A DNA stretch of 64,000 nt from NCBI GenBank assembly GCA_022447625.1, contig JAKVAX010000009.1, positions 1-64,000 on the forward strand. Reading direction: 5' to 3'. The stretch comes from Flavobacteriales bacterium. GTDB lineage: Bacteria > Bacteroidota > Bacteroidia > Flavobacteriales_D > Sanyastnellaceae. The notes beneath the pieces were generated by a model. It saw only the letters and a list, made by a program, of their open reading frames with translations, was not told where the DNA came from and did no database searches. The position numbers were made by a program, and so were the translations under genes. Below are positions 36,860 to 45,781 of this stretch, in pieces. Every line of letters starts with the position of its first letter. The first letter of the stretch is position 1.

Positions 36860-36867
36860 TAAATTTG
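36860..36867 (+). promoter_or_regulatory. putative -7 element TAAATTTG
   Basis: An exact TAnnTTTG match with the GC extension (TAAATTTGCAGC), 34 bases before the start of the degenerate ABC protein. No good -33 element is seen. Confidence 0.5.
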
Positions 36868-36901: not shown

Positions 36902-38536
36902 ATGAGAAACAACCTAACGAACTCTTTACTGTCTCCTTGGCAACGTTTATGGAGACTACTCAACGGCGAGCGAAAACTACTTGGTAAGATCTTTCTTATC
37001 GCAGCTTTTGGAGGTCTTATTGGTCTCTCTCTTCCCCTCGGTATTCAGGCTATCATCAACTTCATTCAAGCAGGTCGTGTCAGCACCTCTTGGATCGTTC
37101 TGATATCCTTTGTACTTCTCGGAATCTTCTTTAGTGGATGGCTTCAAATTCGACAGCAGTGGCTAACGGAGTATCTGCAACAAAGAATCTTCAGTAAAGC
37201 CAGCATTGAATTCTCTGTACGCCTTCCTAAACTCTTGTTCAGAGAGCTTGAAAAAAGAAATCCTGCTGAGTTGATGAACCGTTTCTTCGACGTCTTGACG
37301 TTGCAGAAAGGGATCAGTAAATTGATTATTGATTTTTCTACAGCCGTACTTCAGATCTTCTTCGGATTGATCCTTCTGGGCTTGTACCACCCCTTCTTTA
37401 TCCTCTTCGATTTCGCGCTTATCATCCTCATGTTCTTCCTCTTTAGAATGGCCATGAGGCGAGGACTCAACACGAGTATCCAAGAAAGTACTTGGAAATA
37501 CTCTGTTGTTCGATGGCTTGAAGAGGTGGCACTGAACCTTGAATCATTCAGAATGACACCTGCCACAACCATGGCAGAAAAGCAGACGGATAATCTCACT
37601 GATAAGTACCTCGATGCCCGCACAGAGCACTTCAAGGTACTTGTTCGACACTACATCGCTCTCCTCGTCTTTAAGCTGATCATTGCAGCAGGTCTCCTAC
37701 TTCTCGGTTCCCTGCTTGTAATCAACAACCAAATTGGAATTGGTCAGTTCGTAGCAGCCGAGATCGTTATCCTCTTGATTAGTTCTTCGGTAGAGAAGGT
37801 GATGTTGAACCTTGAGACAGTGTATGATGTCCTTACTGCCCTTGAGAAGGTAGGGTCAGTTACTGATTTGAAACTGGAACCAGGAGGAAGCATAAAGAAC
37901 CAATCGTCGAATGCTCCGCTCTTGAAAATGGAGGATGTCATTATCCAAGAAGACAATTACACTTCTCAACTTGAGATCGAGGAACTTCAGATAAATGAAG
38001 GGGATCGAGTCTTTATCAGCTATGAGCACCCCTTCTTGGTACGTACCATGGTGCAGCTTATCACGGCGCGTGACTGCAATTTCCAAGGGCATGTCCACTA
38101 TCGTGGGAAATCGTTGAAGACCTTCAACAAAGACCTCTACCGAATTTCTGTAGGTGAAATTTGGGGGCGTGACACTCTGTTCACTGATACGGTGTTTGAA
38201 AACATCCGTATGGGACGCGATATCCCGGATGAGTCTGTTGACAAGGTCTTGAACGAAATGGGACTCATCAAAGATGTGCGCTTCCTTCCAGAGGGAGAAA
38301 ACACGATGGTACTGCCCTTCTCGAACCTGCTGTCCAACTCATTGACGAAAGGAATTCTCTTAGCTCGTATGGTGGTTGATAAACCAGATATTCTAATCGT
38401 CGATGCTGAGCAATTGCCTTCTGATCCTGTGCGAAAGAAGCAGTTGTTGAATTACCTACTTGATCCAATCCATCCTTGGGCTTTGATATTCCTTGGAGAA
38501 ACGGATCCAGGGTCTGAGTTCTTCGATTTGCGATGA
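36902..38536 (+). CDS. ABC-exporter-like protein with degenerate ATPase domain
   Basis: A 544-residue type I exporter half: a six-helix transmembrane domain (about 25-300) then a nucleotide-binding-domain-like region (about 340-540). Walker A is missing: where GxxGxGKST should be, residues 371-383 read FISYEHPFLVRTM. The Q-loop and LSGGQ signature (477-482, LLSNSL) are also lost, and the switch His is replaced (FLGETD). Only a partial Walker B (ILIVDAE, 497-503) survives. The fold is still traceable through TLFTDTVFENI and FLPEGENTMV. It cannot hydrolyse ATP as a normal exporter would. The HlyD-type and TolC-type genes follow, so it is an export-system component, not a random relic. Confidence 0.85.
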   Translation: MRNNLTNSLLSPWQRLWRLLNGERKLLGKIFLIAAFGGLIGLSLPLGIQAIINFIQAGRVSTSWIVLISFVLLGIFFSGWLQIRQQWLTEYLQQRIFSKASIEFSVRLPKLLFRELEKRNPAELMNRFFDVLTLQKGISKLIIDFSTAVLQIFFGLILLGLYHPFFILFDFALIILMFFLFRMAMRRGLNTSIQESTWKYSVVRWLEEVALNLESFRMTPATTMAEKQTDNLTDKYLDARTEHFKVLVRHYIALLVFKLIIAAGLLLLGSLLVINNQIGIGQFVAAEIVILLISSSVEKVMLNLETVYDVLTALEKVGSVTDLKLEPGGSIKNQSSNAPLLKMEDVIIQEDNYTSQLEIEELQINEGDRVFISYEHPFLVRTMVQLITARDCNFQGHVHYRGKSLKTFNKDLYRISVGEIWGRDTLFTDTVFENIRMGRDIPDESVDKVLNEMGLIKDVRFLPEGENTMVLPFSNLLSNSLTKGILLARMVVDKPDILIVDAEQLPSDPVRKKQLLNYLLDPIHPWALIFLGETDPGSEFFDLR

Positions 38537-38578: not shown

Positions 38579-39937
38579 ATGCTGAACATTAGTCCAAATA
38601 CAACACCTGAACGCGAGAAGCACCTGCACTCAAAAAGTCTCGAAAGACTGGAGGGTAAGGGCGAGCAGACTAAGTTCCTGCGAATGTTAGGAATCAGCTT
38701 CGGTATCCTAGTCATCCTCATGCTCTTGCCTTGGACACAGAACCTGAATGCTCCGGGTGAGGTCATTTCTCGGTTCCCTGATAAAAAACCGCAGCAGATC
38801 AATTCTCTGATCGATGGCCGTATCAAAAAATGGTACGCATTTGAAGGGCAGAATATTAACGCTGGAGATACGATTGTCACCTTGACGGAAGTCAAGCCAG
38901 AATTCCTAGATGAGGACCTCATTCCAAGAACGCAGGCTTTGGTTCGTGCGAAGGAAGAGGCCATCGTGCTATATACGAACAAGCTGGAGGCTTTATCTAA
39001 TCAAGAAGTTATTCTAGAAGAGCGACGTGAGTTGGCTATTCAACAGGCGAAACTTAAAATTCAGCAGTCCATTCAGAAGGTAGCAGCGGATAGCGCTGCA
39101 GCTGTTCAGGCTAGAATTGATCGCGATATCGCCAATGAACGTGAGAAACGTGCGTATCAACTGTTCGAAGATGGGTTGATCACACAAACAGACCTTGAGT
39201 CACGCATCTTGAAAAAGCAGGAAGCTCAAGCAAAATTTGTCAAGGCTGAGAACACCTTGAGCACGACGCGTCAATCCTTAAGCGTGGCTCGATTAGATGT
39301 TCGCAGCAAACGCGCTGAATACAACGATAAAATTGCAAATAACCAGAGCGACCAAGCTTCAACTGGTGCTGCGAAGCAAGACGCTATCGCGGAAAAGACC
39401 AAATTAGAAAACACCTTGGCCAACTACCGCACACGTCAAACAGGCCAAGTGATCCTTGCACCTCAAGGCGGACGAATAGTGAGCACAATGCAAGGTGGTG
39501 TGGGTGAAATCATCAGGGCCGGAGCTTCTGTTTGTACCGTACAACCACTCGACTTCCAAGAAGCTGCAGAACTCTACGTCAACGCCATGGATGTACCTTT
39601 GATTCATCCAGGAGAAAACGTTCGACTTCAGTTTGATGGATGGCCCGCATTGGTATTTTCAGGCTGGCCAAGTGCCTCTGTCGGAACCTTCGGAGGACGC
39701 GTAGTGAGCGTTGATCAGGTGATTAACGCCAGAGGAAAGTACCGCGTCATAATTATCCCTGAGGAAGGAGAATCATGGCCTCGTCCTTTGAGTATTGGAT
39801 CAGGTGTATACGGAATGGTACTCTTGAAAGATGTACCGCTCGGATATGAACTTTGGCGACAAATCAACGGCTTCCCTCCTGAGTTCTACAAAGGGAAAGA
39901 TGCCGAAGAAAGAAAAGAGGGGGATGAGAAAAAATAG
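38579..39937 (+). CDS. HlyD-family membrane fusion protein
   Basis: 452 residues with one N-terminal membrane segment (about 40-55), a lipoyl/barrel-sandwich split by a long coiled coil (about 120-270, with DLIPRTQALVRAKEEAIVLYTN and later LSTTRQSLSVARLDV), then a periplasmic beta domain (GRIVSTMQGGVGEIIRAG). It would bridge the inner-membrane protein to the outer-membrane channel. It starts 42 bases after the ABC-like gene and overlaps the TolC-like gene by 14 to 38 bases, depending on that start. Confidence 0.88.
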   Translation: MLNISPNTTPEREKHLHSKSLERLEGKGEQTKFLRMLGISFGILVILMLLPWTQNLNAPGEVISRFPDKKPQQINSLIDGRIKKWYAFEGQNINAGDTIVTLTEVKPEFLDEDLIPRTQALVRAKEEAIVLYTNKLEALSNQEVILEERRELAIQQAKLKIQQSIQKVAADSAAAVQARIDRDIANEREKRAYQLFEDGLITQTDLESRILKKQEAQAKFVKAENTLSTTRQSLSVARLDVRSKRAEYNDKIANNQSDQASTGAAKQDAIAEKTKLENTLANYRTRQTGQVILAPQGGRIVSTMQGGVGEIIRAGASVCTVQPLDFQEAAELYVNAMDVPLIHPGENVRLQFDGWPALVFSGWPSASVGTFGGRVVSVDQVINARGKYRVIIIPEEGESWPRPLSIGSGVYGMVLLKDVPLGYELWRQINGFPPEFYKGKDAEERKEGDEKK

Positions 39938-41309
39938 CGCTGTCCTCCTGTTAGTTGGTATCCTGTCGACATCATATTTGCATGCTCAGGATAGTCTGAT
40001 AATCAGCGAACAGCGTTTTCTCCAGCAGTTCCTGACCTCCTACCCTTTGCTTCAAGTGGCTGAGCGTAATGTGGTTATCGCCGAATTAGAGGTTGAAAAT
40101 GCACGTGCCGCCTTTGACCCTATTTGGTATGGCGAATTCGGGAATAAAGTGCTCGAAGGCAAAGATTATTACAGTTACAATCATTCATCCGTTGAATGGA
40201 ACCTCCCTCCGGGTTTCCAACTTCGGGCTGGTACCGATGTGAACCGTGGAGATTTCATTAATCCTGAACGTTTCACCCCTTCAGAAGGCCTCGCTTTCGC
40301 AGAATTGAAAGTACCTCTCGGTCAGGGTTTATTGAGAGATGAATTCAATACCTACCTTCAGCGCGCTCGACTGCTCAACGAACGGAGTATTCTAAACCTC
40401 GAATTAGCACAGCGAGAGTGGCTCATTATTGCCGCTGAAGCTTACTGGAGCTGGAAAGCATTGGAGGAAGTGGTATCTATGCGCGAGCAGATTACAGCCC
40501 TCTCTCAACTCCGATATGAGCAGACCGTTCAACGCTACAATAAAGGAGCGGCAACAGCCATGGATACGCTTGAAGCGTACAACCAAGTGGTCAAGCGTAA
40601 AGTCGAGTTAGTGACTTCACAGGCAGAACGGGAGTTCTGGTATCGTACTGTGGGGGGTATGATTTGGGATCAACAACTCATCCCAGCTTACAGACGTGGC
40701 GGTGTGCAACCAGACACCACATGGACTACCACCCTTTCACAGCAGATCCCAACCAATGATCAGCTGTTGCTCCACCCGAAGATGGGCATGATCCGATTTG
40801 ACGCCGGTGTAGCTGACCTTGATTTCAGATTAGCCAGAGAAAATCTTCGTCCTAAGATTGACTTCAAAGCACAGGCGCTTTCTGATCCAAGAAATCTTAG
40901 TATTTCTAGTAACAGTACGATATTCGGCGTTAGCGCAAAAGTGCCAATCATCAGCCGTAAAGAACGCGCCAAGTTCAATGCGACGAAGATTAAAATGGAA
41001 CAGGTAAGTTTGAAGCTGTCTCAGGCAGAACGAGACCTGATGCAGAAGTACGATCAGCTCTCAACGCAAACCTCGCTGCTAAATCAAAGCCTATCATTGG
41101 TCGAAGAAAACGCAGTCAACGCTCGCAGACTATTGTCTATGGAGGAGCAAAAGCTACGGATTGGGGAAAGCACCATATTCCTCTTGAACCGTCGAGAAAA
41201 CAGCTACATCGAAGCTGAGTTGAAGCGAATTGAGACACAACTCAAGCTTCGTTCTACGGAGTGGAAATTGTTGATGTTGACTGAGGAACCTTCGAACGTG
41301 GTGTTCTAG
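39924..41309 (+). CDS. TolC-family outer-membrane channel
   Basis: About 461 residues from 39924 (MRKNSAVLLLVGILSTSYLHAQ, a clean signal peptide). The ATG at 39900 is also possible and has a better-placed A/G-rich stretch upstream. The long helical hairpins of the outer-membrane efflux family are seen in two halves (QRFLQQFLTSYPLLQVAERNVVIAELEV, and RKERAKFNATKIKMEQVSLKLSQAE with ENAVNARRLLSMEEQKLRIG). It is the exit duct of the tripartite system. The TAG stop is followed after two bases by a GGTTCGT heptamer array. Confidence 0.87.
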   Translation: MRKNSAVLLLVGILSTSYLHAQDSLIISEQRFLQQFLTSYPLLQVAERNVVIAELEVENARAAFDPIWYGEFGNKVLEGKDYYSYNHSSVEWNLPPGFQLRAGTDVNRGDFINPERFTPSEGLAFAELKVPLGQGLLRDEFNTYLQRARLLNERSILNLELAQREWLIIAAEAYWSWKALEEVVSMREQITALSQLRYEQTVQRYNKGAATAMDTLEAYNQVVKRKVELVTSQAEREFWYRTVGGMIWDQQLIPAYRRGGVQPDTTWTTTLSQQIPTNDQLLLHPKMGMIRFDAGVADLDFRLARENLRPKIDFKAQALSDPRNLSISSNSTIFGVSAKVPIISRKERAKFNATKIKMEQVSLKLSQAERDLMQKYDQLSTQTSLLNQSLSLVEENAVNARRLLSMEEQKLRIGESTIFLLNRRENSYIEAELKRIETQLKLRSTEWKLLMLTEEPSNVVF

Positions 41310-41313
41310 GAGT

Positions 41314-41341
41314 GGTTCGTGGTTCGTGGTTCGTGGTTCGT
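41314..41341. repeat. heptamer tandem array GGTTCGT x4
   Basis: Four exact GGTTCGT units. Read in another register as GTGGTTC, the unit matches five of seven bases of GTGGACC, the unit read downstream of the AMP ligase and serine hydrolase genes. The array starts within two bases of the TolC-like TAG stop, in the same orientation to transcription as the others. Confidence 0.95.
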
Positions 41342-41364
41342 GGTAGATTAAAACGAAAAACCTC

Positions 41365-42176: not shown

Positions 42177-43283
42177 TTATTCGAAGCGTGGTTGATTCCA
42201 GACCTTAATCTCGTCTTCTTCAGTGATGCCACTTAAGATCTCAACCATGATTCCGTCAGACAACCCAAGCTCAACGTCTTTACGCGTCCAGCCACCGTTT
42301 CCATCTGGAACTTCAACGTAAGTATTCTGTTCTTCGTCAAACTGAATGACCGCTTCTGGCACTGCCATCACTTGATCTCTTCTATCCAAGACCACATCCG
42401 CGTTAGCGCTATAACCCGCACGAATGAAATCAGTTGAATCAAGCTTAACAGCTGCCTTAATCTCAAATTGAATCGCACCATTCTCCTCCACTCCTTTTGG
42501 AGAAATGTATTCGAGCTCTGCCTTGTACGTCTTGTCTTCGATCGCACCAATGGTTAGAATCAACTCCATTCCAGGAGAAAGCTTCTCTACCTCCGACTCA
42601 TCCAACTTTCCGAGGAAGATCAAATCATCCATAGCCGCAACTGAAGCGATGGTTGTGCCGTCATTGAAGTTATTCGCCTCAATTACTGAGTTTCCTTTCT
42701 TAATCGGCACATCAAGGATCATCCCTGAGATTGTAGATCGCACCTTCGTTAGCGTAGCGCCGCCTGAACGTTTAGCCACCCCTTCGCGCACGATTTGGAG
42801 GTTGTCTTGGGCCGCTTTGAACTCTTCGTTCGCTTGTCTCCGAGCAATTTCGAACTGCTGGAAATCAGCTGGCGCAATCACTCCTTTATCGAGCAACTGT
42901 TTGTTGCGCTCATAGTCCATGTCAGCATTATCAAGGGCAATACGCGCACGTTCCAAACGGTTCTCCGCATTGCTCATACTTACCATGTCTGGAATCACTT
43001 TCACCTTCGCCAGGAGATCACCTTCCTTCACGATATCACCAGCCTGGACATAGATCTCGCTGATAATGCCGCTGATCTGTGGTTTGATTTCAATTTCTTG
43101 ACGTGGCTGAACTGAACCATTGGCTACCGTTTTCAAAACGATATCAGTTTTCTCAGCTTTCTTGGTGTCAAAGGTTTCAGGACCAGTCGATTCCTTCTCC
43201 TTTAGGTAGTATAGCGTTCCTCCGGCTCCAGCGAGGATCAAGACCACAAAAGTGATTAGTACGTATAGGCAACCTTTGTTCAT
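42177..43283 (-). CDS. MacA/HlyD-type periplasmic adaptor
   Basis: A 368-residue adaptor with an N-terminal membrane anchor, a biotinyl-lipoyl-like domain (PQISGIISEIYVQAGDIVKEGDLL, near residue 67), a coiled-coil hairpin (about 100-175), and a barrel domain (PISKGNSVI-type region, then VPEAVIQF). It is the last gene of the ATPase-permease-permease-adaptor operon and links the permeases to an outer-membrane channel, none of which is encoded next to it. The TolC-like gene at 39924 lies on the other strand. Confidence 0.88.
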   Translation of the reverse strand: MNKGCLYVLITFVVLILAGAGGTLYYLKEKESTGPETFDTKKAEKTDIVLKTVANGSVQPRQEIEIKPQISGIISEIYVQAGDIVKEGDLLAKVKVIPDMVSMSNAENRLERARIALDNADMDYERNKQLLDKGVIAPADFQQFEIARRQANEEFKAAQDNLQIVREGVAKRSGGATLTKVRSTISGMILDVPIKKGNSVIEANNFNDGTTIASVAAMDDLIFLGKLDESEVEKLSPGMELILTIGAIEDKTYKAELEYISPKGVEENGAIQFEIKAAVKLDSTDFIRAGYSANADVVLDRRDQVMAVPEAVIQFDEEQNTYVEVPDGNGGWTRKDVELGLSDGIMVEILSGITEEDEIKVWNQPRFE

Positions 43284-43295
43284 GTTGTTAATTGT

Positions 43296-44555
43296 TTAGT
43301 CTGCCCTCAGGGCGTCAACAGGTTTTATACTTACGGCGCGCAGTGCAGGTAGTAAGCCCGCAAATGCCCCCATAATGATCATAAATGCAAGGATCGATAC
43401 AACGATCACAAGTTTCACTCCTGGGTTTCGGAATGAACCCGACTCCCCAGACATTGAAAGTACTTCAGCTACAATGTCTATCAACAGTACACCGAAAACC
43501 ATACCTCCCAATCCAGCAATCGTGGTTAAGAAGATTGTCTCAAGGATAATTTGCTCAATCACTTTCCGTGGTGTGGCTCCTAGCCCCCTTCTGATCCCGA
43601 TTTCTTTGGTCCGTTCTTTTACGGTGATAAGCATAATATTGACGATTCCAATGATACCAGCGAGTAGCACCAATCCACCGAAAAAGAAACCGACAATATT
43701 GAATCCAGTGAAAACCAATTCAATCTCTTCCAGCTCCTCGGCCATCGTCCAGAATCCAAAGGCTCTTGGGTCATCTGGGTGGACACTTTTTCTGGCTTTC
43801 AACGCTGCGACAACCTCATCAGCGCCATCATTGGCATTCACACCTTCCTTAATGAGAATCGATAACCACCCCACGTAATCTCCGAAGTGAAAAGCTTTTT
43901 GGAAGGTAGTTATTGGAACGAAAATCGACTGTGTCGCTTCTTCAGCGTCTTCCCCTGTTCGGAATGAGCGGTACATCCCCACCACCAAGAAATTCACTCC
44001 GTTGATACGGATATACTCACCAACGGCCTCACTCCCATCAGGGAACAAGACTTCATAGACTCGCTTACCAATCACACAAACCTTCCGTTCCTCTTCAATG
44101 TCACGTTGATTGATATAGCGTCCTTGATAGATATCATTGGGCTCAATATCTATGTAGTCAGGGGTATCACCATAGATGTTGAAGGCCCCTGTTTCAACGC
44201 CCCTCGTCACGTTATTCGATCCATTATAACCTCCCAATTGAATACGTGGAGAAACTAGATCTACTGTGGTCAGATTACGTCGTAGGTATTCTACATCGCT
44301 GTTATTTAGCTGAAAGTAACGCCCAGACTTGAATCCTTTATGTGGCATACTCGTCTGTTGCGTCCAGAGGAACATACTGTTGGCCGCTCTATTCTCAGAG
44401 TCTGCTCGAATACCGTTTTGCAGCCCGTTAACGCTTCCGATGGTAATGATCAACATGATGATACCCCAACTCACACCAAGGCCCGACAAAAAGGCTCGGA
44501 TAGGGTTCCGGAGTACGATCTGCAATATTTCTAACCACTTATCCTTATCGAACAT
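43296..44555 (-). CDS. MacB/FtsX-family ABC transporter permease
   Basis: 419 residues: one N-terminal helix (about 15-40), a periplasmic MacB_PCD-like domain (about 45-270) and a C-terminal FtsX domain with three helices, including the family phrase VKERTKEIGIRRGLGATPRKVIEQI and the ending LPALRAVSIKPVDALRAD. It shares its start codon base with the stop of the preceding permease, and the two proteins are paralogues that probably form a heterodimer. Confidence 0.9.
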   Translation of the reverse strand: MFDKDKWLEILQIVLRNPIRAFLSGLGVSWGIIMLIITIGSVNGLQNGIRADSENRAANSMFLWTQQTSMPHKGFKSGRYFQLNNSDVEYLRRNLTTVDLVSPRIQLGGYNGSNNVTRGVETGAFNIYGDTPDYIDIEPNDIYQGRYINQRDIEEERKVCVIGKRVYEVLFPDGSEAVGEYIRINGVNFLVVGMYRSFRTGEDAEEATQSIFVPITTFQKAFHFGDYVGWLSILIKEGVNANDGADEVVAALKARKSVHPDDPRAFGFWTMAEELEEIELVFTGFNIVGFFFGGLVLLAGIIGIVNIMLITVKERTKEIGIRRGLGATPRKVIEQIILETIFLTTIAGLGGMVFGVLLIDIVAEVLSMSGESGSFRNPGVKLVIVVSILAFMIIMGAFAGLLPALRAVSIKPVDALRAD

Positions 44556-45781
44556 TACTCATCTCTTAAGGCTTCAACAGGTTTTATCGATACCGCTCTT
44601 AATGCGGGTATTAGTCCGGATATGGCTCCAGAAACTACAAGTAATCCCAGGGCAATGACACACACGGTGAAATCTACGCTTGGGTTCTTGAAGAAGTCAT
44701 GATCAACAAAACTGGCGATTAGTTCCAACAGGCCTATACCCGCTACCAATCCACAACATCCAGCAACAAGCGAAAGAAAGATACTCTCTTGAACAATCAA
44801 ACTTAAGATCGTTCGCGGCGTCGCCCCAAGCGCTTTTCGAATTCCAATTTCTTTGGTACGTTCTGCCACCACAATCGACATGATATTGGCCACACCAATC
44901 ATTCCGGCTAACAACGTCAAGCTACCTATGGCCCAGATGAAGAGTCGAATTCCTAAGAAAATCATCATGAATTCCCTGAACTCTTCATTGTTGTTACGCA
45001 CCCTTACTGCGCGATTATCGTTTGGATTGACTCGGTGATGTTCTTTCAGGTACGCTTCAATCTCATTGGCCATTTCAATCGATTCCTCGAGGTTGGCTGT
45101 ACCCGTGGAGATCATGTACATATCGATGTCTTCACTCTTACCAAAGAGCTTCTGGGCCGTGGAAATAGGCACATATGCCAATCGGTTTTCCCAGCGACTG
45201 TTCGGGTCGTTGAAGGTCCCAACGACTTTGAATTGGACCCCACGTATCATGAGGTATTCCCCAATGGGGTCTGCTCCCTCGAAAAGATCATCAACGATGA
45301 CCTGACCCACCACGCATACCTTGCGGAACCCAATCAAATCTGATTCGTTGATATATCTTCCATTGGCAATGTCTGTGCGTTCAATTCCTTGATGCCCTGG
45401 ATGAATACCTCTTAGCGGGAAACTCATCGTTTTCCGACCAGAGTTCATTGAAGCGCCCCAGAAAGCTAAACGCGCAGAATAATCCCCTACGCCTTCGATG
45501 TTATCCAAGGTCCAATTGAGGTCATCATTGTCATATTGAATGCGTCGACCAGAGTTCAATCCTCGGAAAGGACGCGACGTTCGCCCACTTCGAATCCATA
45601 GAGAATTGATAGCGTCATCCTGAATTTGAGTGTACACCCCATTTTGCAACCCAAAACCGAGTCCTTGCATCACGACCAAGATGAAAATTCCCAAAGCAAC
45701 AGACACGCCCGTGAGAAAAGTTCTAAGAGGGTTCTGAACAATGGTGTGGAATATTTCAAGCCATTTATCGCGATCGAACAT
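44555..45781 (-). CDS. MacB/FtsX-family ABC transporter permease (paralogue)
   Basis: 408 residues with the same layout as its neighbour: N-terminal helix, MacB_PCD-like periplasmic domain, and FtsX core with VAERTKEIGIRKALGATPRTILSLI and the ending IPALRAVSIKPVEALRDE. The start is three bases after the ATPase stop. Confidence 0.9.
   Translation of the reverse strand: MFDRDKWLEIFHTIVQNPLRTFLTGVSVALGIFILVVMQGLGFGLQNGVYTQIQDDAINSLWIRSGRTSRPFRGLNSGRRIQYDNDDLNWTLDNIEGVGDYSARLAFWGASMNSGRKTMSFPLRGIHPGHQGIERTDIANGRYINESDLIGFRKVCVVGQVIVDDLFEGADPIGEYLMIRGVQFKVVGTFNDPNSRWENRLAYVPISTAQKLFGKSEDIDMYMISTGTANLEESIEMANEIEAYLKEHHRVNPNDNRAVRVRNNNEEFREFMMIFLGIRLFIWAIGSLTLLAGMIGVANIMSIVVAERTKEIGIRKALGATPRTILSLIVQESIFLSLVAGCCGLVAGIGLLELIASFVDHDFFKNPSVDFTVCVIALGLLVVSGAISGLIPALRAVSIKPVEALRDE

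Follow-up and report, generated by a model that had tools for sequence, protein, structure and literature searches.

Type I secretion systems of the HlyB-HlyD-TolC kind are the closest described counterparts of the locus analysed here. According to PMC9751043, which cites Zhao et al. 2022, the HlyB/HlyD complex consists of three HlyB dimers and six HlyD, with only one dimer described as transport competent, which makes non-working copies in such a ring structurally conceivable. In the review PMC8277102, tripartite and type I systems are described with an energized inner-membrane transporter. Our system has in common with HlyB-HlyD-TolC (HlyB, LssB, PrtD; PDB 8dck) the fold of the transmembrane domain (TMD), the ABC-HlyD-TolC gene order and the tripartite architecture; however, its ABC protein has no Walker A, signature, catalytic Glu, switch His or N-terminal C39-like domain, no substrate gene lies alongside the operon, and some of its relatives have no nucleotide-binding domain (NBD). 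The peptidase-containing and NHLP bacteriocin exporters (PCAT1, TIGR03796, TIGR03797) provide the best matches among curated profiles, at 76 bits, and are among the best structural matches, but the protein stays far under the equivalog cut-offs of TIGR03796 and TIGR03797 (709-853 bits), has no peptidase domain and has lost the ATPase motifs. Heterodimeric exporters such as TM287/288, TmrAB, BmrCD and TAP also carry degenerate NBD motifs in one chain; these keep one composite site through a partner, whereas no partner gene was found here. MacA-MacB-TolC pumps have a similar layout of ABC protein, fusion protein and TolC, but the NBD of MacB is active and its TMD has another fold. The open-access literature yielded no account of type I systems lacking an ATPase or of NBD-less ABC exporters in Bacteroidota, which is weak evidence. 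The protein studied here is an ABC exporter by structure, and its operon has the layout of type I secretion.

The locus lies in a 64,000-nt stretch of a Flavobacteriales genome, referred to below as the window (Table 1). Its ABC gene has exactly the intact reading frame given in the original prediction, which was made from the sequence of the window and which held that the ATPase motifs had been lost while the fold and the operon were kept. Motif positions were set by alignment with canonical exporters from the same genome and with relatives. At the Walker A position GPSGAGKST of the canonical exporters has become YEHPFLVRT, the Q-loop Gln is replaced by Gly/Arg, the signature LSGGQ by LSNSL and the D-loop SSLD by LPSD; the switch His is replaced by Gly/Glu and the A-loop aromatic residue is gone. 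The alignment bears out the predicted losses at Walker A, Q-loop, signature and switch His, and adds that of the catalytic Glu, as Walker B reads LIVDA in place of LILDE and retains only its Asp.

Table 1. Features of the ATPase-less exporter operon (window coordinates) and of two relocated regulator genes (genome:contig:coordinates)
Feature	Position	Strand	Details
ATPase-less ABC half-exporter, HlyB-like without N-terminal extension	36902..38536	+	544 aa, ATG start, intact ORF
TMD, residues about 10-323, strongly conserved part	36929..37870	+	identity, dN/dS
Second intracellular loop, residues 215-220 SFRMTP; site of [ST]FK(L)xG coupling motif in ATPase relatives	37544..37561	+	
Degenerate NBD, residues 338-544	37913..38533	+	PF00005 below cut-off
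Walker A position, residues 374-382 YEHPFLVRT	38021..38047	+	alignment
ABC signature position, residues 477-481 LSNSL	38330..38344	+	alignment
Walker B position, residues 498-502 LIVDA; Asp retained, Ala in place of the catalytic Glu	38393..38407	+	alignment
Switch-His position, residues 532-533 Gly-Glu	38495..38500	+	alignment
HlyD-type membrane fusion protein, 452 aa	38579..39937	+	HlyD_3 44.3 bits
TolC-type outer membrane efflux protein, signal peptide	39924..41309	+	OEP 85.7 bits
Bacteroidota-type -7 promoter element TAAATTTG	36860..36867	+	42 nt upstream of ATG; kept in G012
Relocated TetR-type regulator L276	G032:C2:2238826-2239479		
Relocated TetR-type regulator L277	G005:C34:1985-2632		

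The expectation that the fold would be traceable was confirmed by an AlphaFold2 model with a mean pLDDT of 88.6, whose best match among solved structures is HlyB of the HlyB/HlyD complex (PDB 8dck; Z 27.2, 2.8 A, 532 residues). TmrAB, BmrCD and PCAT1 follow, the last at Z 26, and TM287/288 and TAP are also among the matches. On this model the fold is a real exporter fold. A Pfam ABC_membrane match (PF00664) of 30.5 bits, above the cut-off of 28, agrees with the structural matches in placing the protein among the type IV ABC exporters with their six-helix ABC_membrane fold; the ABC_tran match (PF00005) begins past the P-loop and reaches only 20.8 bits, below the cut-off of 25. Since the protein lacks Walker A, the signature, the catalytic Glu together with the switch His and an ABC_tran match above the cut-off, and so fails every ATPase test, the name ABC ATPase is not appropriate for it, nor that of an ATP-driven type I secretion system for its operon. 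It is well supported by the alignment that the protein would have no ATP turnover of its own and, with every ATP-handling motif replaced, should not function as an ATP-driven exporter, as had been proposed.

The HlyD-type and TolC-type genes follow directly after the ABC gene, as predicted. The TolC-type gene overlaps the end of the HlyD gene, and its start was picked by comparison with the nearest relative, G012. The operon therefore has the ABC exporter, HlyD adaptor and TolC duct of type I secretion but not its ATP-driven inner-membrane motor, as the motor motifs are lost and the genome encodes no other HlyB-type protein. The promoter-like -7 element that had been pointed out is present and is retained in G012, and TAnnTTTG occurs 33-91 nt before the ATG in all four close relatives; taken alone, the motif shows no excess over chance across the window. 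A short tandem array of GTGGTTC lies right after the TolC stop codon (window 41309-41345). Beside the operon, on its downstream side, the minus strand (window 42177-45500) encodes a fusion protein of the MacA type, two permeases resembling MacB and an ABC ATPase of 231 aa, a cluster that is partly kept at loci L033 and L119. PADLOC returned no result.

With a search profile built from the TMD alone, the family was detected in 138 of 299 genomes from the order, and, taken together with its outgroup, in 97 of 395 genomes from the phylum; a separate scan gave 456 candidate loci, so that this is a large Bacteroidota family. HlyD and TolC genes lie downstream in nearly all of 80 loci examined, where the contig reaches, and a TetR-type gene is found at 55 of the 80, mostly just upstream, giving a family operon order of TetR-ABC-HlyD-TolC. 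Not one of 173 distinct family NBDs has the catalytic Glu and the switch His together, while a P-loop in a relaxed sense is kept in 151 and gone in 22. An outgroup of 18 more distant Bacteroidota proteins, also mostly encoded in ABC-HlyD-TolC operons, retains Walker A and, in Walker B, the D-E pair, and 15 of the 18 also keep the switch His. These ATPases form one clade (100/100) outside the family on the TMD tree, which argues that catalysis was lost once, in the stem of the family, and the P-loop later. Judged from this tree, the common ancestor of this large Bacteroidota family had already lost catalysis. A subclade (L009, L011, L013, L014 and L027) reads LSGG at the signature, yet has neither the catalytic Glu nor the switch His. 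The proteins L187-L192 carry N-terminal additions of about 155-165 residues, which may be a degenerate C39-like domain; no Pfam match was obtained for the extensions of L187 and L192 or of the outgroup proteins L202, L207, L209 and L214. The operon was also found in metagenome-assembled genomes labelled Saccharospirillaceae (L066) and Chitinophaga pinensis (L065), which are likely binning or naming errors and otherwise transfer.

Loss of the P-loop was counted on a carefully built TMD tree of 91 rows, with the direction of change set by the ATPase outgroup. Six changes were obtained, an estimate, as the branch order of the main radiation is partly unresolved and L113 sits on a very long branch. 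One change falls in the clade of the window protein and the others in a clade of g20/HlyD fusions, in L222-L225 with L233, in L226, L227, L234 and L238, in L239 and in a clade of TMD-only proteins. A single loss, with all rows that have lost the P-loop held together, was ruled out (AU test, p-AU 4e-55). In some relatives the entire NBD is missing. TMD-only proteins of 332-339 aa were found in six genomes of three bacterial families (L180-L185; L026, where the contig ends inside the gene, and L116, a truncated fusion, were left out); they stop 8-12 residues past the TMD, and the HlyD gene starts within 66 nt, with an 8-nt overlap in four of the six. L192, with its N-terminal extension, is sister to this clade. 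In a second architecture, found in L113, L114, L115, L220 and L221, TMD and HlyD are fused in proteins of about 750 aa with no NBD between. The NBD-less proteins of both kinds are mostly still encoded beside HlyD/TolC, and the absence of the NBD from them indicates that it is dispensable in those lineages. By these comparisons the window gene is no isolated oddity but stands at one end of a series: NBD function had already gone in the ancestor, the P-loop disappeared on several occasions, and two or more lineages discarded the NBD altogether.

The median pairwise identity is 49% for the TMD and 39% for the NBD in the ATPase outgroup, 51% and 31% in members with a P-loop and 48% and 18% in those without; conservation of the NBD drops in step with motif loss, whereas that of the TMD does not. 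The Lys of the coupling motif in the second intracellular loop is present in all 18 outgroup ATPases, in 41 of 45 members with a P-loop and in 4 of 18 without; in the TMD-HlyD fusions this loop is shortened and the motif absent. The TMD-only proteins still have the first intracellular loop (ELxNRFFD), although this loop faces the NBD when an exporter is functional. TMD residues retained even in NBD-less proteins include E90, Q135, K136, K140, Y162, S196, K199, Y200, Q282, E287, K299 and K316; from their conservation, E90, K136, K140, S196, K199, Q282, E287, K299 and K316 may be regarded as first candidates for coupling. Most of the conserved TMD charges are common to the ATPase outgroup, the exception being E90, which is conserved in 28% of it. 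No gain of a residue clearly diagnostic of proton or ion coupling was seen: the candidates that the family acquired are E90, G47, Q94, Q151, F154, F283 and a few others, none of them decisive. A HlyD C-terminal motif unique to the family was considered and rejected, as the pattern that set the two groups apart was too narrow and outgroup HlyDs have a similar YExWRxxNGxP tail.

We propose, with a probability of roughly 0.5, that the 544-residue protein is an ATP-independent inner-membrane conduit or secondary transporter feeding the HlyD-TolC complex. The inner-membrane subunit of this trans-envelope tripartite complex would descend from an ATP-driven type I secretion-like ABC exporter that lost the use of ATP, then repeatedly the P-loop and the whole NBD, while TMD, HlyD and TolC were kept under strong selection. 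A TMD dimer, and probably more than one within a HlyD ring of the HlyB/HlyD kind, would form a gated conduit or secondary transporter and hand a small molecule or peptide to the HlyD-TolC channel, driven perhaps by a substrate gradient, by ion-motive force or by the binding and release of HlyD/TolC. The remaining NBD may have a structural role, clamping the helix bundle from the cytoplasm, and would be expendable in the lineages that have deleted it. Counting against the proposal, no substrate gene is conserved beside the operon, no clear ion-coupling residue was gained, and the TMD-only proteins retain the first intracellular loop. That the large Bacteroidota clade as a whole exports through HlyD-TolC without an ATPase, having removed the P-loop about six times and the NBD in two architectures, we hold to be slightly more probable than its opposite.

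The main rival to an ATP-independent conduit is that the protein is only an assembly platform, which would anchor and cluster HlyD so that it holds TolC but would itself move nothing, with another transporter feeding the duct. The HlyB/HlyD ring with its one competent dimer, as described in PMC9751043, makes structural copies plausible, and the TMD-HlyD fusions would suit an anchor. However, HlyD has a membrane anchor of its own, and a bundle of 320 residues with conserved polar positions exceeds what anchoring would need; moreover, no conserved neighbouring transporter lies beside the operon among the 80 loci examined. We consider a pure platform unlikely.

Less likely again is a hetero-complex in which an ATPase-competent ABC protein encoded elsewhere drives the 544-residue protein as its degenerate half. 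Heterodimeric exporters often contain a degenerate half, the structural matches include TM287/288, TmrAB and TAP, and the first intracellular loop is conserved even in TMD-only members, for which a trans-acting NBD is on that account possible. However, a single chain has lost both the signature and the catalytic residues; given the known mechanism of ABC proteins, a normal half-transporter as partner would restore neither of the two composite sites. In addition, the ICL2 coupling motif is deleted in the TMD-HlyD fusions. No second ABC exporter gene or partner ATPase was present in the operons examined, and family TMD matches occur nearly always once per genome. The genome itself encodes five PF00664 proteins, the 544-residue protein and four MsbA/BmrA-type exporters with intact P-loops, and one HlyD of the operon's type; the PF00664 search found no HlyB-type paralogue, and the four MsbA-type exporters, one of which may yet be an unlinked partner, have neither HlyD nor TolC next to them. 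Of the readings put forward in the original prediction, a passive or non-ATP-driven role is favoured, whereas pairing with an ATPase encoded elsewhere is disfavoured, there being no second ABC gene in the operons examined, no paralogue in the genome and coupling elements that are eroded or deleted.

It is improbable that the family forms an ATP-gated valve, in which members with a P-loop would bind ATP without hydrolysis to open or close the conduit and the window clade would have lost this control. This idea draws on the P-loop of the 151 NBDs, most of which keep an aromatic A-loop; many of these members read E-D where ATPases read D-E, and judging from such residues slow or regulatory ATP use outside the window clade is possible. 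However, repeated loss of the P-loop and deletion of the NBD show that binding is inessential, and the valve cannot apply to the window protein itself.

Four relatives fall in the clade of the window protein, at protein identities of 98% (G012), 68% (G032), 62% (G005) and 59% (G015). All four carry the degenerate motifs (in G032, G005 and G015 the P-loop position reads Y..P[FL][FL]VRT and Walker B reads IDAEQLPSDP), and none of them has an intact Walker A and signature, which would have pointed to decay in this strain only. Among relatives near 40% identity Walker A is mostly still present, but degeneration of the signature, the catalytic Glu and the switch His extends through the whole family. 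Comparison of the window genome with G012 gives a dN/dS of 0.007-0.013 in the TMD and of 0.021-0.042 in the NBD, values similar to those of gyrB (0.014-0.022), while HlyD and TolC give higher values. The TMD is 71-80% identical within the clade and has a median identity of 52% to the family; the NBD is 53% identical within the clade and 24% to the family. The low dN/dS and the shared altered motifs together indicate an active gene, with an altered NBD that the clade has conserved in its own right; by these measures both TMD and NBD are under purifying selection, and the proposal that selection has kept the protein holds. That the gene is a relic on its way out is hardly credible, for although the NBD evolves faster than the TMD and a relative of the window clade (G025:C204:2447-4113, L020) is split across two frames, by an assembly frameshift or as a broken gene, recent decay is rejected by a dN/dS of 0.01-0.04 and by replaced motifs common to four relatives, with frame, promoter element and operon all kept.

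Regulation of the operon appears to differ within the clade. The TetR-type genes (L033-L112) are preceded by a palindrome, ATAGTAnTACTAT, which sits beside the -7 element and has exact inverted ATAGTA arms separated by a one-base gap in 29 of 55; in L033 and L034 it stands upstream of the ABC gene. G032 and G005 have no adjacent TetR gene but encode an orthologue elsewhere (Table 1) and have the palindrome upstream of the ABC gene, whereas the window genome, G012 and G015 have lost regulator and palindrome alike. Presence of the two agrees in all five window-clade genomes. From this pattern, ATAGTAnTACTAT is probably the operator of the operon's TetR-type regulator, and the data support repression by this regulator in the family and its loss in the window species.

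If our reading is true, these proteins would be ABC transporters without an ATP-binding cassette, and the family a natural test of what the TMD can do alone. It makes it possible to ask directly whether the TMD of an ABC exporter can work as a secondary transporter or channel, and for which of its parts ATP is needed, and the NBD-less homologues are natural minimal constructs in this respect. Where Bacteroidota genes of this kind are annotated as 'ABC transporter ATP-binding protein' or 'type I secretion ATPase', the label may mislead as to the energy source.
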